DNA of 64,000 bases from Deroplatys truncata (Eukaryota > Arthropoda > Insecta > Mantodea > Mantidae): positions 227,547,152 to 227,611,151 of the forward strand of contig CM060981.1 of assembly GCA_030765065.1 (NCBI GenBank), in the 5' to 3' direction. Shown in pieces: positions 5,393-53,460 of this stretch. Position 1 is the first letter of the stretch. The number at the start of each line of letters is the position of its first letter. Below the pieces are notes generated by a model. It saw only the letters and a list, made by a program, of their open reading frames with translations. It was not told where the DNA came from and did no database searches. A program made the position numbers and the translations under genes.

Positions 5393-5396
5393 CTTT

Positions 5397-23199: not shown

Positions 23200-24030
23200 A
23201 GATATGTACAGTCGAGAGTACGGAAATGAGCCGAGTTTTTGTTTTCCTATAGTGTTTTTCTTTGTTTAATGTTATCAAAAGCTCCTTTTCATCCGTGTTT
23301 CACATCAACTCTGTGTAAACCAATCTCTTATTGGTTTGAATTCAAGTCCGACACGCACGCATTAGCCTAAGAACAAACGTGAGGGCTAGGTGAGTGGCGA
23401 AAGTGGGGGAGTACGCAAACATTTCACCTGGAAGGCATGTTTGGTAGCGACGGTCCAATCTAGCCCCTGGATATGCGACTTAAATATACTTATATTTTAT
23501 TTAAACTTAGTTTGTAATGCTTTCTGTATATTTGCGTTTAATTGAGAAAAATAAAAAATAGTATTAGTACATTTAAATTATTATTTGAGAGGTAAAGTGT
23601 ATTAATTATTCTAATAAATTTAAGTGTCAAAAACTTGACAATCAGACATTAATCTACGAACGCAAGTCAGTTTTAGACTTAGAAGCGAAGGAAAAGGGGA
23701 GAGCAAGAGAAACGTAAAGTGGCGTAAAAGTTGGGGATTGGATGTGGCAGAGGCGGTTTTATATTTCCTTACCAACATAAACCACTGGGCATTTAAATCG
23801 TTACGATTCGATGCACTCGATTGTAAACATCGCAGCAACGGATTTTCTTGAACGATTCATGGTAATTACTTCAGAGATGTTAAAAAAAGACGACTTGTAA
23901 CACAGTTCACAGACGTGCCTCCTCCGAGGAGAGAAGTCATGCAAAAACTTGAATTTAAATTAGGAAGATCGGTTGATGCTGGTCTTCAAGGAAATCGACC
24001 GAATCCTCAAGTTGTATAACTATTTTAGGA
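23200..24030. other. Unrecognised, with a segment related to about 29330
   Basis: The stretch starting TACAGTCGAG at about 23210 resembles that at about 29332 (TACAGTCGAGTGCATAAAAC) for at least 60 bases, including TAGTGTTTT. This suggests an unnamed dispersed repeat whose limits I cannot set. Confidence 0.3.
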
Positions 24031-24032
24031 TA

Positions 24033-31853: not shown

Positions 31854-32498
31854 AAAATCTGATGTGTTACACTCACATGACTTTCTCTACTCTTGTACAA
31901 ACTATTTTTACAAACCCTTATTCTCCCTATGCTTCATGTTAATCGAGATATCGAGATGTTAATCTTATTGCTAATTCTCTTGTAGATGCAAGGGGAATTG
32001 GTAGGCTTTAAGCGATAGTCAAATATTTTAAGAGCTGGATGCTATGTGAAGTATTCCATTCTCTTTGCATTACACAGGACAAAAAAATTGAATAACGAAC
32101 TTCCATTTGAGACAAAGTAGATGTATTGGAAAATTTAAGGGAATAACAAGCAACATTTCGAAAATGATTCACTCAACAAAAAAATGTATATGTTATAAAT
32201 TGTGTATTTTAACGCGATCTACATTTTTTGGTGTAGTAAAAGTTTGTCTATCTATTATGGTTTACCAGTTATGCAAAGTCGTTCACAACGAAGAATACTT
32301 TTGAGACATTCTCAGAAAATTCCAGATATACATTTCATTTGTCATGAAAACATCTTAAACACATGTTCTTTTAATTAAAAACGTTAGCCATATTTGAGAA
32401 AATTAAAATTTTCGAAAAATGTTCCATGTAAAGGGTAATCTGGGGTGGGGGGATTTTCTTGAAAACCTTCGTGTCACATCTCTGAAGGATACTGAACC
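31854..32498 (+). repeat. Family A repeat, copy 7, 5' part (interrupted by the palindromic element)
   Basis: It starts AAAAATCTGATGTGTTACAC and runs to GGATACTGAACC, where the palindromic element begins. The repeat resumes at 53245 with TGAACCTAAATACCAAG, so the last six bases, TGAACC, are duplicated at the two junctions. This is the clearest evidence for the limits of the big element. Confidence 0.9.
32493..32498 (+). repeat. Target-site duplication TGAACC, left
   Basis: These six bases are repeated at 53245-53250. In other family A copies the site reads ACTGAACCTAAATACC once, so the second copy was made by insertion. Six bases is the duplication length of Polinton/Maverick integrases. Confidence 0.9.
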
Positions 32499-32501
32499 AG
32501 C

Positions 32502-33586
32502 AGGATATATAGAGGAATTCGAGCACAGTTTTTTGCGTTTATATGGGAAAGGATAGGGAAAACGAGGCTAGATGCGACGGTTCAAGGAGGAAAATGCGTT
32601 TATATGGGAGAGATAGGGAATACGAGGACTGACGCTAGGCTAGACAGTGGTAGGAGGGGGAGTGCGCTTTATATGAGAGCGTTAGGGTATACGATGAGAG
32701 GTGCTAGGCTAGACCGAGGCTGAGTAATGTATGGTTTATATGAGCGGTATAGGAAAACGATGAGAGGTGTTAGACTAGACAGGGCTTGAAACGTAGTGCA
32801 TGGTTTATATGAGAGATATAGGAAAACGAGGAAAGGTGTTAGGCTAGACAGAAGTCGAGGAGTAGAGTATGGTTTATATGAGAAGTATAGGAAAACGAGA
32901 AGAGGTATTAGGTTAGGAGAATTGAGTTTGTATTTATAAGGAGAGACGAGAAAACGGAGAGAGATCCTATGCTAGGATAGACAGGTGTTAAAGTTAGGTT
33001 AGATAGGAAACCAAGGAGTGATACTCAGCTAGAGGGGGGGCAGGAGGGAATGAGCTTTTGAGAGGTAGGGGATACGGGGAGTGGTGTTAGACTAGACAGG
33101 GCTTGAAACGTAGGGCATGGTTTATATGTATGAGAAGTATAGGAACAGGAAGAGGGGTGCTAGGCTAGACAGAGGTTGAGGAGTAGAGTATAGTTTATAT
33201 GAGAGGTATAGGAAAACGAGGAGAGGAGTTAGAGTAGACAGAGGTCGAGGAGCAGAGTATGGTTTATGTGAGAGTCATAGGTAAACGAGAGAGGCGTTAG
33301 GCTAGACAGAGCTAGAGGAGTAGAGTATGGTTTATATGAGAGGTATAGGAACAGGAGGAGAGGTGTTAGGCTAGACAGGTAGTGTAGCAGTAGGAATATG
33401 GACTTATATACAGGAGAGATAGGCAATAGGAGGTGCTAGACTTGAAAGCGACTTTAGACCTGAACTTAGTGGAAAACTGTTTCATGTCAATGTTCTAGAC
33501 ATGCCCATCACGTAACCTATTCAGGGAAAAGGTGACTCGTTCAGGGGAAAAAGGTGACTGCTCAGGGAAAAAGGAGGCCCACAAAG
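32502..33586 (+). repeat. 1085-bp direct repeat, outer copy
   Basis: Aligns without visible gaps to 36017-37101, from AGGATATATAGAGG to GGCCCACAAAG. A reversed equivalent forms the right tip of the element, about 52155-53242. Confidence 0.9.
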
Positions 33587-36013
33587 AGGTTATTTAGGAG
33601 AGATCGAGCACAGTTTTTTGGGCATATATGGAAAAGGATAGGGAAAACGAGGCTGGATGGGGCGGTTCAAGGAGGAAAATGGGTTTATATGGGAGAGATA
33701 GGGAATACGACGAGCGATACTATGCTAGACAGGGTTGAAGGAGGGAAATACGTTTATATGGAAGGAATAGTGGAGAGGTGTTAGGCTAGACAGAGGTCGA
33801 GGAGTAGAGTAGGGTTTATATGAAAGGTATAGGAAAACGAGGAGGGGCGTTAGGTTAGACAGAGTTGAAGGGTACAGCATGTCTTTTATATGAGAGAGGT
33901 AGGGAGCAGGAGCAGGGGTGTTAGGCTAGACAGAGTTCGAGAAGTAGAGTATGGTTTATATGAAAGGTATAGGAAAACGAGGAGGGGTGTTAGGCTAGAC
34001 AGAGTTGAAGGGTAGAGCATGTCTTGTATATGAGAGAGGTAGGGGACAGGAAATATAGAGAGATCGAGCACAGTTTTTTGCGTTTATATGGGAAAGGATA
34101 GGGAAAACGAGGCTAGATGGAGCGGTTCAAGGAGGAAAATGCGTTTATATGGGCGAGATAGGGAATACCAGGGCTGATGCTAGGCTAGTCAGATGCTAAA
34201 GGAGGGAAATACGTTTATATGGAAGAGATAGTAGAGAGGTGTTAGGCTAGACAAAGGCTGTGGAGTGGAGTATGGTTTATATGAAAGGTATAGGAAAACG
34301 AGGACGGGTGTTAGGCTAGACAGAGATTGTGGAGTAGAGTGCGGTTTATATGAGAGGTATAGGAAAACGAAGAGAGGTATTAGGCTAGACACAGGCTGAG
34401 AGTAGAGTATGCGTTTATATGTATGAGAGGTATAGGAGCAGGAGGAGAGGTGCTAGGCTAGACAGAGGTTGAGTAGAGTATGGGGGCTTGAAACGTAGTG
34501 CATGGTTTATATGAGAGATATAGGAAAACGAGGAAAGGTGTTAGGCTAGGCAGAAGTCGAGGAGTAGAGTAAGGTTTATATGAGAAGTATAGGAAAACGA
34601 GGAGAGGTATTAGGTTAGGAGAATTGAGTTTGTGTTTATAAGGAGAGACGAGAAAACGGAGAGAGATCCTATGCTAGGATAGACAGGTGTTAAAGTTAGT
34701 AGGTAAATATAGAGAGATCGAGCACAGTTTTTTGCGTTTATATGGGAAAGGCTAGGGAAAACGAGGCTAGATGGGGCGGTTCAAGGAGGAAAATGCGTTT
34801 ATATGGGTGAGATAGGGAATACCAGGGCTGATGCTAGGCTAGTCAGATGCTAAAGGAGGGAAATACGTTTATATGGAAGAGATAGTAGAGAGGTGTTAGA
34901 CTAGACAGAGGTCGAGGAGTAGAGTAGGGTTTATATGAAAGGTATAGAAAAAAGAGGAGGGGTGTTAGGTTAGACAGAGTTGAAGGGTAGAGCATGTCTT
35001 TTATATGAGAGAGGTAGGGAACAGGAGCAGGGGTGTTAGGCTAGACAGAGGTCGAGAAGTAGAGTATGGTTTATATGAAAGGTATAGCAAAACGAGGAGG
35101 GGTGTTAGGCTAGACAGAGTTGAAGGGTAGAGCATGTCCTTTATATGAGAGAGATAGGGAACAGGAGCAGGGGTGTTAGGCTAGACAGAGGTCGAGAAGT
35201 AGAGTATGGTTTATATGAAAGGTATAGCAAAACGAGGAGGGGTGTTAGGCTAGACAGAGTTGAAGGGTAGAGCATGTCTTGTATATGAGAAAGGTAGGGA
35301 ACAGAAGCAGGGGTGTTAGGCTAGACAGAGGTCAAGAAGTAGAGTATGGTTTATATGAAAGGTATAGGAAAACGAGGAGGGGTGTTAGGCTAGACAGAGT
35401 TGAAGGGCAGAGCATGTCTTGTATATGAGAGAGGTAGAGAACAGGAGCAGGGGTGTTAGGCTAGGCAGAGGTCAAGAAGTAGAGTATGGTTTATATGAAA
35501 GGTATAGAAAAACGAGGAGGGGTATTAGACTAGACAGAGTTGAAGGGTAGAGCATGTCTTGTATATGAGAGAGGTAGGGAACAGGAGCAGGGGTGTTAGG
35601 CTAGACAGAGGTCAAGAAGTAGAGTATGGTTTATATGAATGGTATAGGAAAACGAGGTGGACTGTTAGGCTAGACAGAGTTGAAGGGTAGAGTATGTCCT
35701 TTATATGAGAGAGGTTGGGAACAGGAAGAGGGGTGTTAGGTTAGGAGAATTGAGTATGTGTTTATAAGGAGAGACGAGAAAACGGAGAGAGATCCTATGC
35801 TAGGATAGACAGGTGTAAAAGTTAGGTTAGATAGGAAACCAAGGAGTGATACTCAGCTAGAGGGGGGGCAGGAGGATTGCGCTTTATGAGAGGTAGGGGA
35901 TACTGGGAGTGGTGTTAGGCTAGACAGAGGTTGAGAGTAGAGTAGACGTTTATATGTATGAGAAGTATAGAACAGGAGGAGGGGTGTTAGGCTAGACAGA
36001 GGTCGAGGAGCAG
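33587..36013 (+). repeat. Satellite-like array of about 70-bp units with a 140-bp higher-order repeat
   Basis: The basic unit, near 70 bp, includes GTTAGGCTAGACAGAG, GAGTAGAGTATGGTTTATATG and GGTATAGGAAAACGAGGA. Between about 34990 and 35730 two variant units alternate as an exact 140-bp period: the AGCATGTC motif falls at 34991, 35131, 35271, 35411 and 35551, and as AGTATGTC at 35691. Copies of the element's own near-terminal motif (GAGCACAGTTTTTT) are interspersed at about 33601, 34061 and 34715. Frames reading LSSLTPLLLFLYLSYKPYSTP-like repeats come from this array and are not genes. Confidence 0.85.
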
Positions 36014-36016
36014 AGT

Positions 36017-37101
36017 AGGATATATAGAGGAATTCGAGCACAGTTTTTTGCGTTTATATGGGAAAGGATAGGGAAAACGAGGCTAGATGCGACGGTTCAA
36101 GGAGGAAAATGCGTTTATATGGGAGAGATAGGGAATACGAGGACTGACGCTAGGCTAGACAGTGGTAGGAGGGGGAGTGCGCTTTATATGAGAGCGTTAG
36201 GGTATACGATGAGAGGTGCTAGGCTAGACCGAGGCTGAGTAATGTATGGTTTATATGAGCGGTATAGGAAAACGATGAGAGGTGTTAGACTAGACAGGGC
36301 TTGAAACGTAGTGCATGGTTTATATGAGAGATATAGGAAAACGAGGAAAGGTGTTAGGCTAGACAGAAGTCGAGGAGTAGAGTATGGTTTATATGAGAAG
36401 TATAGGAAAACGAGAAGAGGTATTAGGTTAGGAGAATTGAGTTTGTATTTATAAGGAGAGACGAGAAAACGGAGAGAGATCCTATGCTAGGATAGACAGG
36501 TGTTAAAGTTAGGTTAGATAGGAAACCAAGGAGTGATACTCAGCTAGAGGGGGGGCAGGAGGGAATGAGCTTTTGAGAGGTAGGGGATACGGGGAGTGGT
36601 GTTAGACTAGACAGGGCTTGAAACGTAGGGCATGGTTTATATGTATGAGAAGTATAGGAACAGGAAGAGGGGTGCTAGGCTAGACAGAGGTTGAGGAGTA
36701 GAGTATAGTTTATATGAGAGGTATAGGAAAACGAGGAGAGGAGTTAGAGTAGACAGAGGTCGAGGAGCAGAGTATGGTTTATGTGAGAGTCATAGGTAAA
36801 CGAGAGAGGCGTTAGGCTAGACAGAGCTAGAGGAGTAGAGTATGGTTTATATGAGAGGTATAGGAACAGGAGGAGAGGTGTTAGGCTAGACAGGTAGTGT
36901 AGCAGTAGGAATATGGACTTATATACAGGAGAGATAGGCAATAGGAGGTGCTAGACTTGAAAGCGACTTTAGACCTGAACTTAGTGGAAAACTGTTTCAT
37001 GTCAATGTTCTAGACATGCCCATCACGTAACCTATTCAGGGAAAAGGTGACTCGTTCAGGGGAAAAAGGTGACTGCTCAGGGAAAAAGGAGGCCCACAAA
37101 G
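36017..37101 (+). repeat. 1085-bp direct repeat, inner copy
   Basis: The inner copy of the 1085-bp segment. It is the true mirror partner of the right tip and continues inward into the 21-bp array. Confidence 0.9.
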
Positions 37102-37340
37102 GGAAAAAGTTGACTAGCAAAGGGAAAAACGTGACCAGCAAAGGGAAAAAGGCGACCACCAAGGGAAAAATGTGACCAGCAAAGGGAAAAAGGTGACCAG
37201 CAAAGGGAAAAAGGCGACATGCAACGGGAAAAAGGTGACCAGTAAAGGGAAAAATGTCACCACCAAAGGGAAAAAGGCGAACACCAAAAGGAAAAAGTTG
37301 AGCCATGAAGGGAAAAAGGTGACCTGCAACGGGAAAAGCT
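37027..37340 (+). repeat. 21-bp tandem array with phased A-tracts, left arm
   Basis: About a dozen units of GGGAAAAAGGTGACCAGCAAA type, with small length variants. Each contains an A4-A5 tract, so the tracts recur about every 21 bp, two helical turns. The reverse strand reads as repeated FPLLVTF-type peptides at 37010-37384, an artefact of a period divisible by three. The mirror array is at 51860-52215. Confidence 0.85.
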
Positions 37341-38650
37341 AACCCACTAACACTAACAGGTAAGTAATTCAGGTAGTATTGCAAGAGGCTGACTGGATCA
37401 TAGCAGTGTATGATTTCACAGGTAATTCAGCTAGTATCGCATGTATTTAGGCTAATTCGTCTAGTAACACAGAATAGATTCCAGCTGCTAACTGCATCAT
37501 GACTCTGCATGATTTCACAGATAATTCAGCTAGTATCGTAGGTATTTAGGCTAATTCAGCTAGTATCACAAGAGGATAGATTCTAGGGTTGGGTATAGCA
37601 TAGTTTCATATTTCACAGGTAATTCAGAGGGTATCGTAGGTATTTAGGATAATTCAAGTAACATAGGTGTTTAGAGTAATTAAGCAAGCATTACAGGAGG
37701 GTAGGTTCCAGGGGTTGGTTATAACCTAGCTTCGTATTTCACAGATAGTTCAGGTAATATCGTAAGTATTTGAGGTAATCGACAGAGCTTCACAGATATT
37801 ATTGATAATTTCGATCAGAGATTTGTATCACAGCTATTTAAGGTAAATGCAGATGATTCAGGTTGTATCAATGGTTTTTGAGTCATTTTAACAGGTAATT
37901 CAGATAGTATCACAGGTGCTCGTGCTAATTTAGAGCAGGAATTCGTATCAGAGCTAGTTAAGGTAATTTCACATGATTCGGGTAGTATCACAGGTATTTA
38001 AATCATTTTCATAGCCAATTCCGCTAGTATCGTGAGCATTTAAGCTAATTCAGCTAGTATGACAGGAGGCTAGATTCCAGAGGCTAACTGCATCATAGCT
38101 ATGCATGTTTTTACAGCTAATTCAGCTAGTATCGTAGGTATTTAGGCTAATTCAGGTAGTATCACAGGAGGCTAGGTTCCAGGGTTGGGTATAGCATAGT
38201 TTCATATTTCAAGGTAATTCAGAGGTTATCGTAGGTATTTAGGATAATTCAAGTAACATAGGTGTTTAGAGTAATTAAGCAAGCATTACAGGAGGGTAGG
38301 TTCCAGGGGTTGGTTATAGCCTAGTTTCGTATTTTGCAGATAGTTCAGGTAATATCGTAAGTATTTGGGTAATCAGCATAGTTTCACAGATGCTCGTAAT
38401 AATTTCGATCAGAGATTTGTATCACAGCTATTTAAGGTAAATGCAGCTGATTCAGGTTGTATCAATGGTATTTGAGTCATTTTAACAGATAATTCTGATA
38501 GTATCACAGGTGCTCGTACTAATTTAGAGCAGGAATTCGTATCTGAGCTATTTAATGTAATTTCACACGATTCGGGTAGTATCACAGGTATTTAAGTCAT
38601 TTTAACAGGCAATTCAACTAGTATCACAGGTACTCATGGTAATATACAGA
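37341..38650 (+). repeat. Degenerate 'TTCAGCTAGTATC' repeat block, left arm
   Basis: Units of about 45-55 bp are built on GGTAATTCAGCTAGTATC and GTAGGTATTTAGGCTAATTC. A larger duplication of period 596 is visible: GGGTTGGGTATAGCATAGTT occurs at 37586 and 38182. Mirror copy at 50560-51830. No coding potential was seen. Confidence 0.8.
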
Positions 38651-39191
38651 GTAATTCGATTATAAAACTTTTCTCATCCAGCGTTACAACAATTTATATA
38701 CTTTTTTCTAAATCTTACAAATTTTTATATGTTAAACAGTTATTGTACGATGCAGAGGGGGATAAACTGTATATGGTTTACAAACTGAAAAGCTTTTCGT
38801 CAACATACCTTTATTTTAGTTCGTTGTAGGAGTCTCTCCCCTTTTATCTAGGCTTGAGACTACCACTAGGATTGCTCCTAATGGCAGGGTTACCACCTTC
38901 ACTTCCATCTTCTTTCTTCATCAGACGTCTGCTAGTTACATACACAGCACACGAATAAACTCCATTTTTAAGATTGTAGACTCACGAGAAAATCTTCATC
39001 TTCGACTTACATTCTCTTAAGCACTGTTTGTAATACTGTAATGTCCATACGCATAGGTAGTTATTCCATCCTCAGCAATAATTCTTTTATCATCAAACGG
39101 AGTCAATGCAATTTTATTCACTTGCACTGTGGTAACAGCATGCGTTCGTGATAGGATTAGATTCATGGGCGTTCTGATGATTTCACTGGTT
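38651..39191 (-). other. 3' flank of the left PolB gene
   Basis: On the minus strand an AATAAA at 38810-38815 lies about 380 bases past the PolB stop and may be its polyadenylation signal. The rest has no separate feature. Confidence 0.5.
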
Positions 39192-42100
39192 TTAAGACAG
39201 TCTGTATAACGAAATGTACTGCTTAATACCGCTACGTTTTATACCTTTAATCTTTTTTACCATTGACCCTCGAATATCTAAGGCATACATCTTAGGACGT
39301 AGTCCAACAAAGCGTAGGATGATTTTGCTATTAGCCTCATCTTTAAATTTTCCCAATACCTTCTTGTTCTGAGTAGAGTAACATATATGGTTGGCAGGGT
39401 AATCACATGTATCGAGATGCTCAAGAAAACGTAGCTTGTCCTGGTACACATCTTCAGTTGTAACACGATGAATGAACGAATCAGTGTCCATATACATAAG
39501 CTTCAGGTTTTCAGCTCCATAATAAGGCAACAACACGTCGTAATGATAGTTATACATTAATGTCTTGGAGATGTCCAACACACTCATACCAATGTATATA
39601 GGCTTGTTGAATACAATCTGACGAGAGGCCATATGTACAGCAGCTAGATTATCAGCATATATCGCCCTGTCGATAAACGTAGGCTTGGCGATCAGCTTCT
39701 CTAGAGTTTTTTCATTGCTCACCAGTCGTATATCCATACGGTTACGCAGGTTCTCCATAGTTTTTCCAAACATGGCGTTGTTAAAGAGTTTGTAGAGATC
39801 CTTCTCGAAATAATTTGCAGCTTGTTGTCGTAGACTGTTGTTAAATTCCAAATAAGGTTTCAACCACCGAGACTGTAGGAATTGTAGCACACGATGGATT
39901 TTTGTTAGTCGTAGTCCATGACTAAGAGCTTGCTTCAAAGCCATGTAATGCACTACATACTTCTTTCGAGGTCCAAGATGGGATATCAGTTTCTTTGTAG
40001 ATGCTTCCAATGGTTTAATACACTCTGGCAGAAAAGGTAGATCGTTGTGTAGATCGTGAAGTTCTGCAGGATACTCGATGTCGACTTCTAATATGTACCC
40101 ATGAGGATCATCTTCTTGTAGTGTTTCTAAGTTGATTTCTTCAGGCAAAACCCACTGAAATCCACCAAAAGGAAGGGCGTGACACATTGCCCAGCCATAT
40201 TGGTTATTAGCGTCCTCGTATGTGATAAATTGGGTTAGTCTCGACGGATCAAACTTCTCCATATAAGTGTTATTAGCCTCAGCATACCGATGAGAAACTT
40301 GGCATAAACCTCCTCTTATACCTGATTCCACCATGAGTAGTTGATCATAATCTTGTAACAGCTCTAACTTAATTCCAGTATACAGTAACATAGCGTCCCA
40401 TGTTAGACCTGGAGAGGTAAAATAATGGGCGGGATCGACTTTGTGTGTTTTAAGGGTTTTCTCTCTGAACGTCTCAAAGACGTCAGCTAGAAGAAGTACA
40501 TCCGAAGTTAAGTAGAGATCGCTGTACTCTCCCAGGTTTCTCACATTAAACAGCTCCCATACATTTCTAGCATGATCGTAGTCAGCATCAGTAATTTCTT
40601 CTTCATTTAATCTATTGTAGAAGGAGTCCTTAGGAGGCAAGCAGGTCTCGTTCAGGGCATCCCATGACGTAACAAAATCATATGGAAATACACCCTTACG
40701 GGTCATCAACTTCAATTTGTCTTCTCCAAAGTACTTTAGCGTTTCAGGATACGAGGTTAGATTTTTTACCAACTTATCCAAGCTTGTACTGAGGAATCGG
40801 AAGCTATCCACAAATCGAAGCTTTATATCTCCTACATACTTGATGAATGAGATATAGCTTTCTTCAGAGTTAGGAATTACCTCCACACGTTCACTTGTAC
40901 AACCCAGCTCCTTAATGAAATGAGAGTCATATCCGCTAAGGTTATGCATGAAGACTGGTATATATTTAGGTGTTTTGCAGGCTAAATTACATTCATTATG
41001 AAGACTTCCACGATATTCACCGCTGATGTGATCATGGTCGCGTACTTTATAGTTCTCTTCTGTAAAGGGTTTTCCACACAAGTAGCATGTCGTAGAAGAC
41101 TCGAAATCCTTTTGCTGTTGATCCGTAAGTTTCAGAGGCTTAGCAGATTTGTATATATTACCAATCATTTTTGCAAGAGATGTCAGGTACAGCATAAACT
41201 TCTGAGCAGCATCAGCACCACGATACACATAGGGTTGCTTAGGAAGATCAGTTTCGAGATGTTCAACACTGGATGTAGGTTTCACGTAAACACAGAAGCT
41301 CATTGGTGTGTGCTCTTGATAAGGGGTTGTATAGGAAGTTTCAGGATTGGGTGTACACGTATGGCATGGAGTGAGAATACTCTCAAAATCAGCATAGATG
41401 ACATAAGGTACTTTCAGCATCCTCTCAACATTTTTAAACTGTGCAATTGCTTTCTCCTTGCTAGGCATAACAACCCTTGCAACACCATGTTGAATACAGA
41501 CGGCTGCATGTTCTTGTAGTTTTTCCAGTCCACTTCGTCCATATCGATTATCAAAATGTGTAAAACAGCGCTTGCAGGTATAAACACGTTCATTACATTT
41601 AGTTTTCTGGCGTCGAACGAGCTTCTCAAAATTCCTTATATACACGTAGTGATGTTTTCCACTGCTGTCATTCAATAGTAGCAGGTCGCGATGTTCAGGT
41701 AGTTCAATATCAGCAACCTTTATCGGATACACTTCGTGCTTCTCATCCAGCCCGAAAACGTTAATAGACATATTGTTAAGCTTCTCAAATTTAGGTATTT
41801 GAGAAAGTGGAGTAGGGTAGGAAACACAGCTGAAGTTGTACTTGTCTTGAAGTTGTTTGTATTTGTTCACACGCTGTGCATTCTTCCCTATGAATTTAGC
41901 TAATATAGAGTACATGAAACATTTCTCGTCGGTAAAGTTCTGAATGTTTATACACGCTTCTTTAGCTCCAACAGATGACGGTAGTGGTATGTAGCTACTT
42001 CCTCGTAACGGGTTGTACTTGTTGATACGAAGTCGAACTCCTTCCACAGCAAGCAAAGCCCAGCTGCTACCCTTAAGCTGAGACTCCTCCATTTCAGTCA

Positions 42101-42554
42101 CCAATTTCTTGAATTTCACTTCCATCGTTGACTCCAGATCAGTTTCCAGGAAAGCAGCTTGATTCCGTGTTTTAAATGTTTTGTCACAGGTTTCTCCAAC
42201 ACTGTTAACAAATCGACACTCAGCCAGCAGATTAATTTTAACACTCTTATGAATGCTAAGCTCTTTATGCACAGCCTGGATTATACGTTGTTTTGCCTCT
42301 TGCAGATACATATTCAGGTCCTTAGCTGATTCGCATCGTATAAAATACGATTTCAATCGTCCTTCGAATGAAGTTTCGTATTCTTTCATATCACAGTCCT
42401 CCATTGTTGACAGTAACTGATGTTTAGTTGGCTCCAATCTTCTTTTCTTCTGAGGGCTGCTTATTTCACATATATCTTCATGTCGCTGCCCCTTATAACC
42501 ATCTTTGAAGGTTACATTACAATGTTTACATTTGAAGAGCTTCTTGCAGCTCAT
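39192..42554 (-). CDS. polB: Protein-primed family-B DNA polymerase of Polinton type, left copy (fossil)
   Basis: An 1120-residue frame. It opens with C2H2-like zinc fingers (CKHCNVTF...H, 8-25), and a further Cys/His finger lies at about 328-353 (CKRCFTHF). The 3'-5' exonuclease follows with DFE at 389-391, the second motif HNLSGYDSHF at 537-546 and a third around DVLLLADVFE (685-694). An HNH/endonuclease VII-like insert (CYLC at 490-493, RDHDH at 505-509, HNEC) sits between the exonuclease motifs, as in insect members of the family. The polymerase has motif A DANNQYGW (781-788), motif B LYKLFNNAMFGK (920-931) and motif C YMDTDS (1021-1026), then RPKMY (1086-1090). Such enzymes copy linear DNA from a protein primer. 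It looks whole as a single frame; the true start may lie slightly upstream, toward 42650. Confidence 0.92.
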   Translation of the reverse strand: MSCKKLFKCKHCNVTFKDGYKGQRHEDICEISSPQKKRRLEPTKHQLLSTMEDCDMKEYETSFEGRLKSYFIRCESAKDLNMYLQEAKQRIIQAVHKELSIHKSVKINLLAECRFVNSVGETCDKTFKTRNQAAFLETDLESTMEVKFKKLVTEMEESQLKGSSWALLAVEGVRLRINKYNPLRGSSYIPLPSSVGAKEACINIQNFTDEKCFMYSILAKFIGKNAQRVNKYKQLQDKYNFSCVSYPTPLSQIPKFEKLNNMSINVFGLDEKHEVYPIKVADIELPEHRDLLLLNDSSGKHHYVYIRNFEKLVRRQKTKCNERVYTCKRCFTHFDNRYGRSGLEKLQEHAAVCIQHGVARVVMPSKEKAIAQFKNVERMLKVPYVIYADFESILTPCHTCTPNPETSYTTPYQEHTPMSFCVYVKPTSSVEHLETDLPKQPYVYRGADAAQKFMLYLTSLAKMIGNIYKSAKPLKLTDQQQKDFESSTTCYLCGKPFTEENYKVRDHDHISGEYRGSLHNECNLACKTPKYIPVFMHNLSGYDSHFIKELGCTSERVEVIPNSEESYISFIKYVGDIKLRFVDSFRFLSTSLDKLVKNLTSYPETLKYFGEDKLKLMTRKGVFPYDFVTSWDALNETCLPPKDSFYNRLNEEEITDADYDHARNVWELFNVRNLGEYSDLYLTSDVLLLADVFETFREKTLKTHKVDPAHYFTSPGLTWDAMLLYTGIKLELLQDYDQLLMVESGIRGGLCQVSHRYAEANNTYMEKFDPSRLTQFITYEDANNQYGWAMCHALPFGGFQWVLPEEINLETLQEDDPHGYILEVDIEYPAELHDLHNDLPFLPECIKPLEASTKKLISHLGPRKKYVVHYMALKQALSHGLRLTKIHRVLQFLQSRWLKPYLEFNNSLRQQAANYFEKDLYKLFNNAMFGKTMENLRNRMDIRLVSNEKTLEKLIAKPTFIDRAIYADNLAAVHMASRQIVFNKPIYIGMSVLDISKTLMYNYHYDVLLPYYGAENLKLMYMDTDSFIHRVTTEDVYQDKLRFLEHLDTCDYPANHICYSTQNKKVLGKFKDEANSKIILRFVGLRPKMYALDIRGSMVKKIKGIKRSGIKQYISLYRLS

Positions 42555-42793
42555 CTCGTGTCTTCTCTTGTCATAACCTCGGAGGAACTTCTTCCCACAT
42601 TTTCCGCATGCATATCCAGTAGCGCTTGGAATAATATCCTTATACGCTGAGTTATTTATCTTTATTCTTGATGTAATAACGTATTAATCACTGATTCAAT
42701 GAAATGTACACCTCTTCACCTTGATACCACTTTAGAAAGCTGATTATTCTTGGAGAGAACACGATGTTAACACCTCAAGACTAATTAGCACAA

Positions 42794-42826
42794 TGAAGTC
42801 CAATGCCCTAGATCACCATATTTATA
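42794..42826 (-). promoter_or_regulatory. Core promoter of the left PolB gene
   Basis: On the minus strand TATAAA (42826-42821) lies 32 bases before a TCATT initiator-like site (A at 42794), about 140-240 bases upstream of the PolB start region. The same arrangement is mirrored at 46375-46407. Confidence 0.6.
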
Positions 42827-43309
42827 GAGGGAGCACGAACCTTTTAGATCAATCATAAACTCGTTTCATAACCAGATGTATATGATCGCTCAACGTGTAT
42901 TAACCCCCCAGCCATATAACCTCAAGTCTAGAGACAGGATGTTTATGACGTCAGACAGAATGTCTGACAGCATCAAACACGTTTAAACTCGTCTAATATC
43001 TACCTGCTTATGCTGTCACACCAGCAAGAGAAGCATTCTCCCACGCTCATTCAGACATATATTTCAAATTCAAAGCCTACCACCACCATCACCACCTATT
43101 GTACCAAGGTTAATTCCTGCTGTATTATCACAATACTTAAAGTAAAAGCTTAAAAGGTAACGTAGAAGACTTTCCCCCTTATTTACTTAATTATTTCATG
43201 TTTTATTCCCTTTTCAATTCTTCCTTTCCATCTTCTCACAGAAAGACCATTACATTTCACTACAATCATGAGAAAAGCAATTTTACCAGAGTTACACAGA
43301 TTCTAAGCT

Positions 43310-44557
43310 TCTAAATCGAACCCGGTAATACTTTTAATAAATGTATTTTAGCTCCCCAATATCAACATCTACCATTTAATCTTTACTCGAACCTGATATG
43401 ATCCATAAGCTTGAGGATATATGAAATCACCCCTTCGGGATTCGATCTGAGTACTTTAGAGTAATATTTGTCACGATAACGATATTTAAGGACTAGATAC
43501 TCTCTTTACGTTTACCTTGACATGTCTATATAAATTAAATTACGAGTTATTAAATCTTTGCAAGTAAATTTCATTGAATCGGTATTCGAACCCAGAACAC
43601 CAGGAACAAAATAATTTATAATATTAGTCTGACATGTTAAACAAAGCGGTATGCAGTTACATCATCGATCTAAGTGATATATTCTAGTGTACAGAGGAAA
43701 ATTAAGGAAGTCATTAAAAGATGGGGAATCGAACCAAGCACAACTGATTGACAACTATATACAGCATTAATCACCCAGTACAGAACCTATCAATCATGCT
43801 TTGGCGCACTCCTCTACCTCACTTAGTTCCCGAGATAATGAAAATTTAAAAATTAAGGATCGAACCCAGGACGTCAGGTATCTAGTTACACATCTACAAG
43901 ATACTACCTATTAACATAAATGCAATAAACTTTATTTGGTGTCCTTATTGTAATTAGTTTAGGAGTTATTAAATTTATAATTAAATTACATTTTATCAGT
44001 ATTCGAACCCAGAACACCAGAAACAAAATTATTTACAATATTAGTTTGATATGTTTAAAAGAGCTGTATGTAGTTACAGCATCAATCTAAGTGATATATT
44101 CTAGAGTATAGAGAAAAATTAAGGAAGCCATTAAAAAACTCGGGATTCGAACTAGAGACAACTGATTGAAAATTATATACAGTATTAATTACACATTATA
44201 ATAGCTATCAAACATGCTTTGATCCATTCCTCTAGCTTTCTTAGTTTCCGAGATAATGGAGATTTAAGCATTAAGAATCGAACCCGGGACACCAGGTACC
44301 AAAATATACATTTACATGAAACTACCTAATGACATTAATGTAATAAAGTTCATTTGGCGTCTTAATCTTAATTAGTCTCTGAGTTATTAGAAGATGAATT
44401 TGTAATCACTCCTAGGATTCGAACCCAGGCATCCCGGTTAACTTGAAACAATGTCCTAATGACACGGCGTATTTCAAAGAATTGATTAGTTTTTATCTCA
44501 TTGCTCTATCTCTTGTCATTCAGGAGATATAAGCGATTAAACATTAGACAGATTAGG
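43310..44557 (-). repeat. Array with box B-like GGTTCGA motifs, left half of the palindrome centre
   Basis: On the minus strand motifs like GGTTCGATCC, GGGTTCGAATAC or AGTTCGAATCCC recur near 43318, 43573, 43724, 43858, 44001, 44147, 44275 and 44418, mostly 128-150 bases apart. Two successive groups of three align with each other at a period of about 428 bases (for example the CCAGAACACCAG blocks near 43585 and 44013). The motif matches the tRNA internal promoter box B, but no box A or cloverleaf could be built. Mirror array at about 44637-45885. Confidence 0.7.
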
Positions 44558-44636
44558 CGGGGCTGGTTACACATGTTTACATGTGTTAAAACACATGTAA
44601 ATCAGTGGGCGGCATCTCTCTGTTGGCCAGCTCTCT
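44558..44636. other. Central loop of the giant palindrome with a 24-bp hairpin
   Basis: About 80 bases separate the arms, which pair from GATTAGG (ending at 44557) with CCTAATA (starting near 44637). Inside the loop, 44577-44600 is a near-perfect hairpin, TTACATGTGTT then AA then AACACATGTAA. Confidence 0.75.
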
Positions 44637-45885
44637 CCTAATATGTCTACTGTTTAATCGCTTATATCTCCTGAATGACAAGAGATAGAGCAATGAGATA
44701 AAAACTAATCTATTCTTTGAAATGCGCCGCGTCATTAGGACATTATTCCAAGTTGACCGGGATGCCTGGGTTCGAATTCTAGGAGTGATTACAAATTCAT
44801 CTTCTAATAACTCAGAGACTGATTAAGATAAAGACGCCAAATAAACTTTATTACATTAAGGTCCTTAGGTAGTTTCTTGTGAATGTATATCTTGGTACCT
44901 GGTGTCCTGGGTTCGATCCTTAATTTTTAAATCTCCATTATCTCGGAAACTAAGAAAGCTAGAGGAATGGATCAAAGCATGTTTGATAGGTGTTATAATG
45001 TGTAATTAATACTGTATATAATTTTCAATCAGTTGTCTCTAGTTCGAATCCCGAGTTTTTAATGACTTCCTTAATTTTTCTCTATACTCTAGAATATATC
45101 ACTTAGATTGATGCTGTAACTACATACAGCTCTTTTAAACATATCAAACTAATATTGTAAATAATTTTGTTTCTGGTGTTCTGGGTTCGAATACTGATAA
45201 AATGTAGTTTAATTATAAATTTAATAACTCCTAAACTAATTACAATAAGGACACCAAATAAACTTTATTGCATTTATTTTATTGGGTAGTATCTTTAAGA
45301 TGTGTAATTAGATACCTGACGTCCTGGTTTCGATCCTTAATTTTTAACTTTTCATTATCTCGGGAACTAAGTGAGGTAGAGGAGCGCACTAAAGCATGAT
45401 TGATAGGTTCTGTACTGGGTGATTAATGCTGTATATAGTTGTCAATCAGTTGTGCTTGGTTCGATTCCCCATCTTTTAATGACTTCCTTAATTTTCCTCT
45501 GTACACTAGAATATATCACTTAGATCGATGATGTAACTGCATACCGCTTTGTTTAACATGTCAGACTAATATTATAAATTATTTTGTTCCTGGTGTTCTG
45601 GGTTCGAATACCGATTCAATGAAATTTACTTGCAAAGATTTAATAACTCGTAATTTAATTTATATAGACATGTCAAGGTAAACGTAAAGAGAGTATCTAG
45701 TCCTTAAATATCGTTATCGTGACAAATATTACTCTAAAGTACTCAGATCGAATCCCGAAGGGGTGATTTCATATATCCTCAAGCTTATGGATCATATCAG
45801 GTTCGAGTAAAGATTAAATGGTAGATGTTGATATTGGGGAGCTAAAATACATTTATTAAAAGTATTACCGGGTTCGATTTAGAAG
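44637..45885 (+). repeat. Array with box B-like GGTTCGA motifs, right half of the palindrome centre
   Basis: Mirror of the left array: GGGTTCGAAT-type motifs recur at intervals of about 128-150 bases from about 44769 to 45874. No tRNA gene could be folded from it. Confidence 0.7.
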
Positions 45886-46374
45886 CTTAGAATCTGTGTA
45901 ACTCTGGTAAAATTGCTTTTCTCATGATTGTAGTGAAATGTAATGGTCTTTCTGTGAGAAGATGGAAAGGAAGAATTGAAAAGGGAATAAAACATGAAAT
46001 AATTAAGTAAATAAGGGGGAAAGTCTTCTACGTTACCTTTTAAGCTTTTACTTTAAGTATTGTGATAATACAGCTGGAATTAACCTTGGTACAATAGGTG
46101 GTGATGGTGGTGGTAGGCTTTGATTTTGAAATATATGTCTGAATGAGCGTGGGAGAATGCTTCTCTTGCTGGTGTGACAGCATAAGCAGGTAGTTATTAG
46201 ACGAGTTTAAACGTGTTTGATGCTGTCAGACATTCTGTCTCTGGGTGTGACGTCATAAACATCCTGTCTCTAGACTTGAGGTTATATGACTGGGGGGTTA
46301 ATACACGTTGAGCGATCATATACATCTGGTTATGAAACGAGTTTATGATTGATCTAAAAGGTTCGTGCTCCCTC

Positions 46375-46407
46375 TATAAATATGGTGATCTAGGGCATTG
46401 GACTTCA
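46375..46407 (+). promoter_or_regulatory. Core promoter of the right PolB gene
   Basis: TATAAA at 46375-46380 and a TTCATTG initiator-like site with A at 46407, 32 bases apart, lie 135 bases before the start codon region at 46542. This is the mirror of the left copy. Confidence 0.6.
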
Positions 46408-46541
46408 TTGTGCTAATTAGTCTTGAGGTGTTAACATCGTGTTCTCTCCAAGAATAATCAGCTTTCTAAAGTGGTATCAAGGTGAAGAGGTGTACATTTC
46501 ATTGAATCAGTGATTAATACGTTATTACATCAAGAATAAAG

Positions 46542-49500
46542 ATGAATAACTCAGCGTATAAGGATATTATTCCAAGCGCTACTGGATATGCATGCGGTAA
46601 ATGTGGGAAGAAGTTCCTCCGAGGTTATGACAAGAGAAGACACGAGATGAGCTGCAAGAAGCTCTTCAAATGTAAACATTGTAATGTAACCTTCAAAGAT
46701 GGTTATAAGGGGCAGCGACATGAAGATATATGTGAAATAAGCAGCCCTCAGAAGAAAAGAAGATTGGAGCCAACTAAACATCAGTTACTGTCAACAATGG
46801 AGGACTGTGATATGAAAGAATATGAAATTTCATTCGAAGGACGATTGAAATCGTATTTTATACGATGCGAATCAGCTAAGGACCTGAATATGTATCTGCA
46901 AGAGGCAAAACAACGTATAATCCAGGCTGTGCATAAAGAGCTTAGCATTCATAAGAGTGTTAAAATTAATCTGCTGGCTGAGTGTCGATTGGTTAACAGT
47001 GTTGGAGAAACCTGTGACAAAACATTTAAAACACGGAATCAAGCTGTTTTCCTGGAAACTGATCTGGAGTCAACGATGGAAGTGAAATTCAAGAAATTGG
47101 TGACTGAAATGGAGGAGTCTCAGCTTAAGGGTAGCAGCTGGGCTTTGCTTGCTGTGGAAGGAGTTCGACTTCGTATCAACAAGTACAACCCGTTACGAGG
47201 AAGTAGCTACATACCACTACCGTCATCTGTTGGAGCTAAAGAAGCGTGTATAAACATTCAGAACTTTACCGACGAGAAATGTTTCATGTACTCTATATTA
47301 GCTAAATTCATAGGGAAGAATGCACAGCGTGTGAACAAATACAAACAACTTCAAGACAAGTACAACTTCAGCTGTGTTTCCTACCCTACTCCACTTTCTC
47401 AAATACCTAAATTTGAGAAGCTTAACAATATGTCTATTAACGTTTTCGGGCTGGATGAGAAGCACGAAGTGTATCCGATAAAGGTTGCTGATATTGAACT
47501 ACCTGAACATCGCGACCTGCTACTATTGAATGACAGCAGTGGAAATCATCACTACGTGTATATAAGGAATTTTGAGAAGCTCGTTCGACGCCAGAAAACT
47601 AAATGTAATGAACGTGTTTATACCTGCAAGCGCTGTTTTACACATTTTGATAATCGATATGGACGAAGTGGACTGGAAAAACTACAAGAACATGCAGCCG
47701 TCTGTATTCAACATGGTGTTGCAAGGGTTGTTATGCCTAGCAAGGAGAAAGCAATTGCACAGTTTAAAAATGTTGAGAGGATGCTGAAAGTACCTTATGT
47801 CATCTATGCTGATTTTGAGAGTATTCTCACTCCATGCCATACGTGTACACCCAATCCTGAAACTTCCTACAACCCCTTATCAAGAGCACACACCAATGAG
47901 CTTCTGTGTTTACGTGAAACCTACATCCAGTGTTGAACATCTCGAAACTGATCATCCTAAGCAACCCTATGTGTATCGTGGTGCTGATGCTGCTCAGAAG
48001 TTTATGCTGTACCTGACATCTCTTGCAAAAATGATTGGTAATATATACAAATCTGCTAAGCCTCTGAAACTTACGGATCAACAGCAAAAGGATTTCGAGT
48101 CTTCTACGACATGCTACTTGTGTGGAAAACCCTTTACAGAAGAGAACTATAAAGTACGCGACCATGATCACATCAGCGGTGAATATCGTGGAAGTCTTCA
48201 TAATGAATGTAATTTAGCCTGCAAAACACCTAAATATATACCAGTCTTCATGCATAACCTTAGCGCATATGACTCTCATTTCATTAAGGAGCTGGGTTGT
48301 ACAAGTGAACGTGTGGAGGTAATTCCTAAATCTGAAGAAATCTATATCTCATTCACCAAGTATGTAGGAGATATAAAGCTTCGATTTGTGGATAGCTTCC
48401 GATTCCTCAGTACAAGCTTGGATAAGTTGGTAAAAAATCTAACCTCGTATCCTGAAACGCTAAAGTACTTTGGAGAAGACAAATTGAAGTTGATGACCCG
48501 TAAGGGTGTATTTCCATATGATTTTATTACGTCATGGGATGCCCTGAACGAGACCTGCTTGCCTCCTAAGGACTCCTTCTACAATAGATTAAATGAAGAA
48601 GAAATTACTGATGCTGACTACGATCATGCTAGAAATGTATGGGAGCTGTTTAATGTGAGAAACCTGGGAGAGTACAGCGATCTCTACTTAACTTCGGATG
48701 TACTTCTTCTAGCTGACGTCTTTGAGACGTTCAGAGAGAAAACCCTTAAAACACACAAAGTCGATCCCGCCCATTATTTTACCTCTCCAGGTCTAACATG
48801 GGACGCTATGTTACTGTATACTGGAATTAAGTTAGAGCTGTTACAAGATTATGATCAACTACTCATGGTAGAATCAGGTATAAGAGGAGGTTTATGCCAA
48901 GTTTCTCATCGGTATGCTGAGGCTAATAACACTTATATGGAGAAGTTTGATCTGTCGAGACTAACCCAATTTATCACATACGAGGACGCTAATAACCAAT
49001 ATGGCTGGGCAATGTGTCACGCCCTTCCTTTTGGTGGATTTCAGTGGGTTTTGCCTGAAGAAATCAACTTAGAAACACTACAAGAAGATGATCCTCATGG
49101 GTACATATTAGAAGTCGACATCGAGTATCCTGCAGAACTTCACGATCTACACAACGATCTACCTTTTCTGCCAGAGTGTATTAAACCATTGGAAGCATCT
49201 ACAAAGAAACTGATATCCCATCTTGGACCTCGAAAGAAGTATGTAGTGCATTACATGGCTTTGAAGCAAGCTCTTAGTCATGGACTACGACTAACAAAAA
49301 TCCATCGTGTGCTACAATTCCTACAGTCTCGGTGGTTGAAACCTTATTTGGAATTTAACAACAGTCTACGACAACAAGCTGCAAATTATTTCGAGAAGGA
49401 TCTCTACAAACTCTTTAACAACGCCATGTTTGGAAAAACTATGGAGAACCTGCGTAACCGTATGGATATACGACTGGTGAGCAATGAAAAAACTCTAGAG

Positions 49501-50007
49501 AAGCTGATCGCCAAGCCTACGTTTATCGACAGGGCGATATATGCTGATAATCTAGCTGCTGTACATATGGCCTCTCGTCAGATTGTATTCAACAAGCCTA
49601 TATACATTGGTATGAGTGTGTTGGACATCTCCAAGACATTAATGTATAACTATCATTACGACGTGTTGTTGCCTTATTATGGAGCTGAAAACCTGAAGCT
49701 TATGTATATGGACACTGATTCGTTCATTCATCGTGTTACAACTGAAGATGTGTACCAGGACAAGCTACGTTTTCTTGAGCATCTCGATACATGTGATTAC
49801 CCTGCCAACCATATATGTTACTCTACTCAGAACAAGAAGGTATTGGGAAAATTTAAAGATGAGGCTAATAGCAAAATCATCCTACGCTTTGTTGGACTAC
49901 GTCCTAAGATGTATGCCTTAGATATTCGAGGGTCAATGGTAAAAAAGATTAAAGGTATAAAACGTAGCGGTATTAAGCAGTACATTTCGTTATACAGACT
50001 GTCTTAA
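46542..50007 (+). pseudogene. polB: Protein-primed family-B DNA polymerase of Polinton type, right copy (fossil)
   Basis: Mirror copy of the left polymerase gene with the same zinc-finger, exonuclease, HNH and polymerase motifs in the same order. It starts at MNNSAYKDI and shows an additional N-terminal finger (CGKCGKKF...H). It agrees with the left copy except at about 11 residues and carries about one break, so it is listed as broken. The promoter and the AATAAA at 50384-50389 are mirrored too. The near identity of the two copies indicates recent duplication or gene conversion between arms. Confidence 0.88.
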
Positions 50008-50559
50008 AACCAGTGAAATCATCAGAACGCCCATGAATCTAATCCTATCACGAACGCATGCTGTTACCACAGTGCAAGTGAATAAAATTGCATTGACTCC
50101 GTTTGATGATAAAAGAATTATTGCTGAGGATGGAATAACTACCTATGCGTATGGACATTACAGTATTACAAACAGTGCTTAAGAGAATGTAAGTCGAAGA
50201 TGAAGATTTTCTCGTGAGTCTACAATCTTAAAAATGGAGTTTATTCGTGTGCTGTGTATGTAACTAGCAGACGTCTGATGAAGAAAGAAGATGGAAGGGA
50301 AGGTGGTAACCCTGCCATTAGGAGCAATCCTAGTGGTAGTCTCAAGCCTAGATAAAAGGGGAGAGACTCCTACAACGAACTAAAATAAAGGTATGTTGAC
50401 GCAAAGCTTTTCAGTTTGTAAACCATATACAGTTTATCCCCCTCTGCATCGTACAATAACTGTTTAACATATAAAAATTTGTAAGATTTAGAAAAAAGTA
50501 TATAAATTGTTGTAACGCTGGATGAGAAAAGTTTTATAATCGAATTACTCTATATTACC
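50008..50559 (+). other. 3' flank of the right PolB copy
   Basis: Mirror of 38651-39191, including AATAAA at 50384-50389. No separate feature. Confidence 0.5.
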
Positions 50560-51840
50560 ATGAGTACCTGTGATACTAGTTGAATTGCCTGTTAAAATGA
50601 CTTAAATACCTGTGATACTACCCGAATCGTGTGAAATTACATTAAATAGCTCAGATACGAATTCCTGCTCTAAATTAGTACGAGCACCTGTGATACTATC
50701 AGAATTACCTGTTAAAATGACTCAAATACCATTGATACAACCTGAATCAGCTGCATTTACCTTAAATAGCTGTGATACAAAACTCTGATCGAAATTATTA
50801 CGAGCATCTGTGAAACTATGCTGATTACCCAAATACTTACGATATTACCTGAACTATCTGTAAAATACGAAACTAGGCTATAACCAACCCCTGGAACCTA
50901 CCCTCCTGTAATGCTTGCTTAATTACTCTAAACACCTATGTTACTTGAATTATCCTAAATACCTACGATACCCTCTGAATTACCTTGAAATATGAAACTA
51001 TGCTATACCCAACCCTGGAACCTAGCCTCCTGTGATACTACCTGAATTAGCCTAAATACCTACGATACTAGCTGAATTAGCTGTGAAAACATGCATAGCT
51101 ATGATGCAGTTAGCCTCTGGAATCTAGCCTCCTGTCATACTAGCTGAATTAGCTTAAATGCTCACGATACTAGCTGAATTGGCTATGAAAATGATTTAAA
51201 TACCTGTGATACTACCCGAATCATGTGAAATTACCTTAACTAGCTCTGATACGAATTCCTGCTCTAAATTAGCACGAGCACCTGTGATACTATCTGAATT
51301 ACCTGTTAAAATGACTCAAATACCATTGATACAACCTGAATCATCTGCATTTACCTTAAATAGCTGTGATACAAATCTCTGATCGAAATTATCAATAATA
51401 TCTGTGAAGCTCTGTCGATTACCTCAAATACTTACGATATTACCTGAACTATCTGTGAAATACGAAGCTAGGTTATAACCAACCCCTGGAACCTACCCTC
51501 CTGTAATGCTTGCTTAATTACTCTAAACACCTATGTTACTTGAATTATCCTAAATACCTACGATACCCTCTGAATTACCTGTGAAATATGAAACTATGCT
51601 ATACCCAACCCTAGAATCTATCCTCTTGTGATACTAGCTGAATTAGCCTAAATGCCTACGATACTAGCTGAATTATCTGTGAAATCATGCAGAGTCATGA
51701 TGCAGTTAGCATCTGGAATCTATCCTGTGTTACTAGACGAATTAGCCTAAATACATACGATACTAGCTGAATTACCTGTGAAATCATACACTGCTATGAT
51801 CCAGTCAGCCTCTTGCAATACTACCTGAATTACTTACCTG
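50560..51840 (-). repeat. Degenerate 'TTCAGCTAGTATC' repeat block, right arm
   Basis: Reverse counterpart of 37341-38650, with units such as GATACTAGCTGAATTAGC and the same larger duplication (CCCAACCCT blocks near 51009 and 51605). Confidence 0.8.
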
Positions 51841-51859
51841 TTAGTGTTAGTGGGTTAGC

Positions 51860-52215
51860 TTTTCCCGTTGCAGGTCACCTTTTTCCCTTTATGGCTCACC
51901 TTTTTCCCTTTGGTGGTCGCCTTTTTCCCTTTGGTGGTGACATTTTTCCCTTTACTGGTCACCTTTTTCCCGTTGCATGTCGCCTTTTTCCCTTTGCTGG
52001 TCACCTTTTTCCCTTTGCTGGTCACATTTTTCCCTTGGTGGTCGCCTTTTTCCCTTTGCTGGTCACCTTTTTCCCTTTGCTGGTCACATTTTTCCCTTGG
52101 TGGTCGCCTTTTTCCCTTTGCTGGTCACGTTTTTCCCTTTGCTAGTCAACTTTTTCCCTTTGTGGGCCTCCTTTTTCCCTGAGCAGTCACCTTTTTCCCC
52201 TGAACGAGTCACCTT
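51860..52215 (-). repeat. 21-bp tandem array with phased A-tracts, right arm
   Basis: Units of CTTTTTCCCTTTGCTGGTCAC type, mirror of 37027-37340, with a few more units than the left array. Frames at 51813-52249 reading FPLLVTFFP-type repeats in several phases are artefacts of the array. Confidence 0.85.
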
Positions 52216-53244
52216 TTCGCTGAATAGGTTACGTGATGGGCATGTCTAGAACATTGACATGAAACAGTTTTCCACTAAGTTGACGTCTAAAGTCGCTTTC
52301 AAGTCTAGCACCTCCTATTGCCTATCTCTCCTGTATATAAGTCCATATTCCTACTGCTACACTACCTGTCTAGCCTAACACCTCTCCTCCTGTTCCTATA
52401 CCTCTCATATAAACCATACTCTACTCCTCTAGCTCTGTCTAGCCTAACGCCTCTCTCGTTTACCTATGACTCTCACATAAACCATTCTCTGCTCCTCGAC
52501 CTCTGTCTAGTCTAACTCCTCTCCTCGTTTTCCTATACCTCTCATATAAACTATACTCTACTCCTCAACCTCTGTCTAGCCTAGCACCCCTCTTCCTGTT
52601 CCTATACTTCTCATACATATAAACCATGCCCTACGTTTCAAGCCCTGTCTAGTCTAACACCACTCCCCGTATCCCCTACCTCTCAAAAGCTCATTCCCTC
52701 CTGCCCCCCTCTAGCTGAGTATCACTCCTTGGTTTCCTATCTAACCTAACTTTAACACCTGTCTATCCTAGCATAGGATCTCTCTCCGTTTTCTCGTCTC
52801 TCCTTATAAACACAAACTCAATCCTCCTAACCTAATACCTCTCCTCGTTTTCCTATACTTCTCATATAAACCATACTCTACTCCTCGACTTCTGTCTAGC
52901 CTAACACCTTTCCTCGTTTTCCTATATCTCTCATATAAACCATGCACTACGTTTCAAGCCCTGTCTAGTCTAACACCTCTCATCGTTTTCCTATACCGCT
53001 CATATAAACCATACATTACTCAGCCTCTGTCTAGCCTAGCACCTCTCATCGTATTCCCTAACGCTCTCATATAAAGCGCACTCCCCCTCCTACCACTGTC
53101 TAGCCTAGCGTCAGTCCTCGTATTCCCTATCTCTCCCATATAAACGCATTTTCCTCCTTGAACCGTCGCATCTAGCCTCGTATTCCCTATCCTTTCCCAT
53201 ATAAACGCAAAAAACTGTGCTCGAATTTCTCTGTATATCCTACT
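52216..53244 (-). repeat. Right terminal satellite-like block and terminus
   Basis: Mirror of the 1085-bp direct repeat: CTCATATAAACCATACTCTA, GTCTAGCCTAACACC and CGTTTTCCTATACC units, ending in CTGTATATCCTACT at the element border. It lacks the 3.5-kb extension seen on the left. Confidence 0.85.
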
Positions 53245-53460
53245 TGAACCTAAATACCAAGTTTGGTGTTTATCCGACTGTTCGTTTCTGAGTTATGCTA
53301 TTCAGACACGCAGACACACAAAGACACGGACATGTTTCCAAAAATGCTTTTCTTGGATTCAGGGGGTCTCAAAACATATATTTCCGGTGAAATCTCGGTA
53401 TCGAATTTTTGGGTGGAATACAATATTTCCCCTACTTACTATACGTAGTAATGAAAGAAA
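53245..53460 (+). repeat. Family A repeat, copy 7, 3' part, with right target duplication
   Basis: It begins with the duplicated TGAACC (53245-53250) and continues TAAATACCAAGTTTGGTG exactly where the left part stopped, ending with ACTATACGTAGTAATGAAAG. The frame at 53263-53448 is repeat sequence. Confidence 0.9.

Follow-up and report, generated by a model that had tools for sequence, protein, structure and literature searches.

PolB-bearing palindromes with Polinton-type ends form a large family in the mantis Deroplatys truncata

The palindromic insertion and its coding content

The 64,000-nucleotide window analyzed here (Deroplatys truncata, assembly GCA_030765065.1, contig CM060981.1, positions 227,547,152 to 227,611,151 of the forward strand) contains a 20.7-kb insertion that is built for the most part as an inverted repeat around a short axis spacer, with a type-B DNA polymerase gene (PolB) in each arm (Table 1). 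The two arms, each 8.6 kb long, are 99% alike: their global alignment has 8538 aligned columns, 86 of them mismatched, plus 6 indel events. The insertion is incompletely symmetric because its left side carries 3515 extra outer bases, the first 1087 of which duplicate the left tip at 99.9% identity. On the left, the outer tip reads AGCAGGATATA; the right outer tip, when reversed, reads AGTAGGATATA. A first-pass annotation of the same DNA had described a Polinton-type element rebuilt as a giant palindrome, and the features on which it leaned were all recovered, namely, the AG...CT ends, a 6-bp TGAACC duplication lying within a repeat, inverted arms of about 8.6 kb, and one PolB per arm with no other recognized gene. 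When the window flanks were joined with a single TGAACC, all 40 scored places in the host genome (best 40 of 4726 candidates) matched at 91-93%, 39 of them spanning bases 1-400 and one spanning bases 5-400. Since the joined flanks match other places in the genome, the borders of the insertion are exact and its target was a dispersed repeat.

Both PolB genes read outward from the axis. The left one is still a single open frame, with a weaker Endonuclease_7 match (Pfam, 2.9e-5) adjoining the polymerase domain, while the right one is split into two overlapping frames. In a protein search with thousands of candidates, 38 of the 40 best-scoring PolB matches had frames of 1225 aa (the frame of copy L014 measures 1217 aa from its ATG), and the left PolB of the window is therefore regarded as shortened. 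The other three frames of at least 85 aa between 36014 and 44636 had no Pfam match at E<=0.1, so that an rve integrase was found nowhere in the left arm and spacer at that frame length; in the rest of the element, the listed frames (at least 150 aa) all belong to PolB, and no other gene was recognized. Within these same frames, Pfam recognized neither a packaging ATPase, a protease, or capsid/virion genes nor a transposase of any foldback superfamily. A search against PDB returned zinc-finger matches and one other, all at E 0.17 or worse, and a search against NCBIfam returned no match.

Table 1. Features of the palindromic insertion, in window coordinates
Feature	Position	Strand	Remarks
Left target-site duplication	32493..32498	+	TGAACC
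Entire insertion	32499..53244	.	AG...CT ends
Left-only extra outer block	32499..36013	+	3515 bases
Palindrome left arm	36014..44557	+	inverted-repeat analysis
Tip array	36014..37040	+	~69-base repeats, strong G-over-C skew
Tandem array	37060..37337	+	21-base repeat, 13 copies
Repeat region	37410..38635	+	99-126-base repeats
Left PolB frame	39192..42683	-	1163 aa stop to stop; Pfam DNA_pol_B_2, 7e-23
Inner array, left arm	43533..44389	-
Axis spacer	44558..44636	.	79 bases
Palindrome right arm	44637..53244	-	inverted-repeat analysis
Inner-array mirror, right arm	44805..45660	+
Right PolB copy	46518..50007	+	two overlapping frames, 46518-47936 and 47788-50007
Right target-site duplication	53245..53250	+	TGAACC

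A multicopy family in the host genome

The host assembly comprises 4.29 Gb in 818 contigs, and PolB matches occur in it as divergent pairs. With the best 40 matches scored among thousands of candidates in each search, 28 matches of the DNA search and 24 of the protein search belonged to such pairs, with starts 6.8-8.2 kb apart. In a domain search (best 150 matches), 52 of 53 pairs less than 12 kb apart were divergent, mostly at a spacing of 7.08-7.13 kb; other palindromic PolB copies, whose presence the first-pass annotation had made a test of its proposal, are thus at hand. On contig C1, 64 of the 69 listed PolB matches lay in divergent pairs, and scaling by length from C1, among the matches listed, would put the genome at roughly 400 palindromes. 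A viral PolB probe brought nine further divergent pairs among the matches listed, with starts 7.0-14.6 kb apart. Among the 76 best-scoring DNA_pol_B_2 genes of another class, one pair lay less than 20 kb apart. This pair, too, is divergent (G000:C4:11089823 on the minus strand and 11105705 on the plus strand), and its frames differ in length.

Both ends were read in 18 copies (the window element, 4 copies picked from PolB pairs, and 13 picked from tip matches), and all 18 have AG...CT ends and exact 6-bp duplications that differ from copy to copy; for the 17 copies outside the window, 15 duplications were scored by script and 2, with tips that vary, by eye. Among the interiors of the 13 tip-picked copies, two were read fully and two more partly around PolB (L003, L004, L005), and both of the fully read interiors are palindromes with the center deleted. 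The 8.2-kb copy L059 fits one center-spanning deletion. For the 9.4-kb copy L074, a new fold-back axis was considered and rejected, as its breakpoints fit two deletions in the standard palindrome, one spanning the center and another, small one.

The palindromes therefore make up a family that is large, was active recently, and includes several subfamilies. The earlier proposal of a fold-back derivative holds for the palindromic layout and fails in the notion of a single derivative. Palindromes can mislead assemblers, and fold-back sequencing reads exist; a rival explanation is that sequences were wrongly joined head to head. Here it is hardly credible, given the many loci with their own flanks, exact and differing duplications, and distinct arm sequences, together with the clean joined-flank matches; so many independent copies exclude both chance and misassembly.

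Some copies depart from the standard layout. In two PolB pairs (G000:C2:13591646/13595700 and C2:18572524/18576578), the spacing is shortened to an identical 4054 bases, which suggests that a shortened palindrome itself multiplied or was duplicated. The long-loop copies L084 and L086, read with hidden cargo in mind, have mirrored inner DNA with one 191-aa PolB piece plus PolB ends, and their other frames, known here by length only, reach 177 aa. Nested at the center of L086 is an inverted repeat some 765 bases long (4004-4765 and 5164-5925), which partly resembles the center of L084; perhaps another foldback repeat was inserted at the axis. A divergent pair of integrase-like matches lies 5.3 kb apart at G000:C72:159931 (minus strand) and 165191 (plus strand), and could be a palindromic element in which an integrase replaces the polymerase.

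Relatives of the polymerase and of the layout

With Polinton/Maverick elements, the palindromes share the AG...CT ends, a viral/organellar-type PolB (DNA_pol_B_2), and a duplication of 6 bp, the length that Polintons make. Terminal inverted repeats are also present, but they are 8.6 kb long and contain genes. Integrase-bearing Polintons occur in the same genome, as the first-pass annotation had supposed: L065 combines a PolB and an rve integrase (the latter by Pfam) with frames that look ATPase-like and capsid-like by eye, and L030 has an A32-type ATPase (Pfam). Protease-like and capsid-like frames were seen by eye in L065 and L030. The Polinton family that includes L065 starts AGTAGTATATA (a boundary common to two copies), and the palindromes start AGTAGGATATA, so that the two have in common the AG start and 10 of the first 11 bases, besides a PolB gene. 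Such similar tips, together with the host rve integrase, make integration in trans plausible. In content, L065 has one PolB, of another class, with its integrase, whereas the palindromes have two PolB copies and nothing else recognized; because no rve integrase was matched among the frames of at least 85 aa in its left arm and spacer, the window palindrome was not filed as a complete Polinton.

The polymerase itself stands apart from other PolBs of the host. Five of these, of which L065 was the one read with its neighbors, are 36-81% alike; the palindrome PolB had no blastp match to these five at 1e-5, and a profile alignment with them (hhalign) covered only 186 C-terminal columns at a probability of 83% and E 9e-6. 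On sequence comparison, it is thus a PolB of another class than those five. Simple gene loss from the host's ordinary Polintons is unsupported as the direct origin, given this difference in class.

The best relative found was the PolB of the Polinton-like virus contig IMGVR_UViG_3300028392_002905 (L082, L083), which is 38% identical over 1123 aa, although it did not itself reach Pfam DNA_pol_B_2 at E 0.1. The residues of what we take to be the exonuclease and polymerase motifs are identical in the two proteins. This 17.4-kb contig differs from the palindromes in carrying a single PolB plus an rve integrase and an A32-type ATPase (Pfam); its capsid match falls below the cut-off. In the viral collection, neither the window protein nor the first motif pattern had a match and the second pattern matched one contig, and the only matches in phage records were four short ones to endonuclease VII.

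Long inverted arms with tandem repeats also bring foldback transposons to mind. Tetris and Galileo have very long inverted arms with internal repeats; foldback transposons of this type use other transposases and are not known to carry a polymerase gene. In the titles and abstract openings of the open-access literature searched, no palindromic Polinton was described. Adintoviruses and bidnaviruses resemble the palindromes in having a PolB with an N-terminal extension, and two PolB clades in adintoviruses and inverted terminal repeats in bidnaviruses are also described (PMC11071296, PMC4061559); the terms "palindrom" and "hairpin" are absent from PMC11071296. Both virus groups carry virion genes, of which none was recognized in the window element. 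The palindromes could be one segment of a bigger Polinton-like or bidnavirus-like virus, which is perhaps multipartite, or a satellite of it, with integrase and capsid genes on other segments that have matching tips. The relative in a virus contig with an integrase and a packaging ATPase is in keeping with this, as are bidnaviruses, where a polymerase of this kind occurs together with as many as twelve segments (PMC11071296). However, other genes were not seen between tips of this kind, with just two tip-paired interiors read fully, and we regard this origin as improbable.

Arm symmetry and its possible upkeep

In five copies, the arms differ from each other at 43, 48, 7, 22, and 0 of about 6500 bases, and divergence between loci has a median of 2.6% and a minimum of 4 bases. 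A tree built from 25 arm sequences places the two arms of a copy next to each other as sisters for all six testable pairs, with support of 0.96-1.0 in five of them and no value for the sixth, whose arms are identical. The copies in this comparison differ by up to 14%; in the C6 copy, the PolB arms are 99.4% alike, yet only 86-87% alike to the main family. Beyond the PolB start region, the copies at C4, C6, and C7 have inner DNA in common; it lacks any long match to the window, and the two arms mirror each other there at 98.0-99.4%. New inner DNA that is mirrored must have been copied from arm to arm, or else the palindrome was re-made, and together with the sister arms it argues that one arm is used to correct or re-copy the other. 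The outer arrays at C4 and C6 are likewise mirrored by eye over the parts read, which stop short of the tips; farther out at C4, stretches share just 76 and 58 bases.

The same data bear on a competing explanation, in which the palindrome arose once and was inherited whole, gene conversion in the chromosome homogenizes the arms, as it does in long chromosomal palindromes, and replication by PolB is irrelevant to the symmetry. This is the chief competitor of a hairpin model and shares many of its predictions, including sister arms in six of six pairs. Five other main-family copies have similar spacers, as a single inherited palindrome would: four align with the window through the axis at 76-79% over 240 bases including the arm ends, differing in the middle of the spacer, and the fifth (C2:2698) has a similar spacer with some arm DNA missing on one side of the axis. 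Variants beside the axis are found on both arms in four of these five copies, the fifth being the one that lost arm DNA. Two observations speak against this account, neither of them decisively: (i) in subfamilies whose inner DNA differs, the mirroring reaches close to the axis, and (ii) one very young copy has arms with 0 differences in 6503 bases, which means that symmetry was present at or soon after insertion. On balance, we consider a palindrome inherited whole and homogenized by conversion unlikely.

PolB is under purifying selection across the family. The median dN/dS was 0.31 over 122 non-independent pairs (5-95% range, 0.23-0.88), and the frame is 99.3% conserved across 14 loci vs 93% upstream and 94% downstream of it. 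It follows from the low dN/dS and the conserved frame that the polymerase works, or recently worked, in spreading copies.

Building on the palindromic layout, the ends and duplications, the selection on PolB, the concordance of arms, the PolB relative in a virus contig, and the host Polinton with a similar tip and an integrase, we propose, with a probability of about 60%, that the palindromes are a PolB-only, self-complementary family of the Polinton class that integrates in trans and is kept symmetric through a snap-back intermediate. Here we infer protein priming, a hairpin step, and integration by a Polinton integrase. PolB, probably protein-primed as its relatives are, would start at the identical tips, and the displaced single strand could fold on itself to give an 8.5-kb hairpin with a short closing loop, and this hairpin would restore a double-stranded origin at the tip. 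Self-complementary adeno-associated virus vectors, in which a strand snaps into its own duplex, offer a working analogy from an unrelated parvovirus system. The arms could be kept alike by mismatch repair in the hairpin or by one arm being copied from its partner, and newly gained inner DNA could be mirrored in the same way. The linear double-stranded product might then be inserted by an rve integrase that ordinary Polintons supply in trans, leaving AG...CT ends and a 6-bp duplication.

Several points weigh against this proposal. The PolB class differs from that of the host's Polintons, and the likeness of the tips amounts to 10 of 11 bases and comes from one Polinton end only. A count of integrases near PolBs does not discriminate, at 0 of 126 for this class and likewise 0 of 126 for the other class among the matches listed. 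Hairpin, single-stranded, or extrachromosomal forms were not seen. The arms could also be homogenized in the chromosome by ordinary gene conversion, and the similar main-family spacers speak for inheritance of a single palindrome over a new fold-back with every transposition. As for the window element, both of its PolB frames are damaged, and its dN/dS against the near relative L007 is about 1.2, so that this branch is decaying; the AlphaFold model, at pLDDT 28, was unusable.

A bolder version of the snap-back proposal would make these palindromes an obligatorily self-complementary element class, which snaps back in each round of replication, proofreads its arms against each other, mirrors new DNA, has the polymerase as the sole enzyme of its own, and borrows its integrase; this we hold tentatively, as somewhat less probable than its negation. 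The usual description of Polintons is of self-sufficient, virus-like elements. Numerous PolB-only palindromes that are still spreading suggest that, given borrowed integration, a gene for replication is enough to drive amplification. The family is also a natural experiment on strand-displacement replication and on concerted evolution within one element, lets one ask how a genome copes with many palindromes of 17 kb, and offers a route to study how viral-type DNA polymerases copy and spread DNA.

The inner arrays beside the axis are strand-specific. The motif GTTCGA occurs 9 times on the minus strand and 0 times on the plus strand in 42700-44557 (0.24 expected per strand from composition-preserving shuffles), and 8 times on the plus strand and 0 times on the minus strand in 44637-46500 (0.38 expected). 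Over 42700-46500, the arrays form a higher-order repeat of 417-418 bases, and by eye, some of the motifs are followed by a run of T. The motifs resemble the B-box of Pol III promoters, and Pol III units or SINE-derived arrays are possible. No tRNA gene in the inner arrays reached the Rfam gathering score, and we therefore limit the claim to B-box-like motifs. The C6 subfamily has 3 GTTCGA motifs per inner half, counting both strands, vs 8-9 in the window, which disfavors a conserved function. Outside the element, a fragment of a Tc-type transposase lies at 23964-24545 of the window (Pfam HTH_Tnp_Tc3_2, just below the cut-off).

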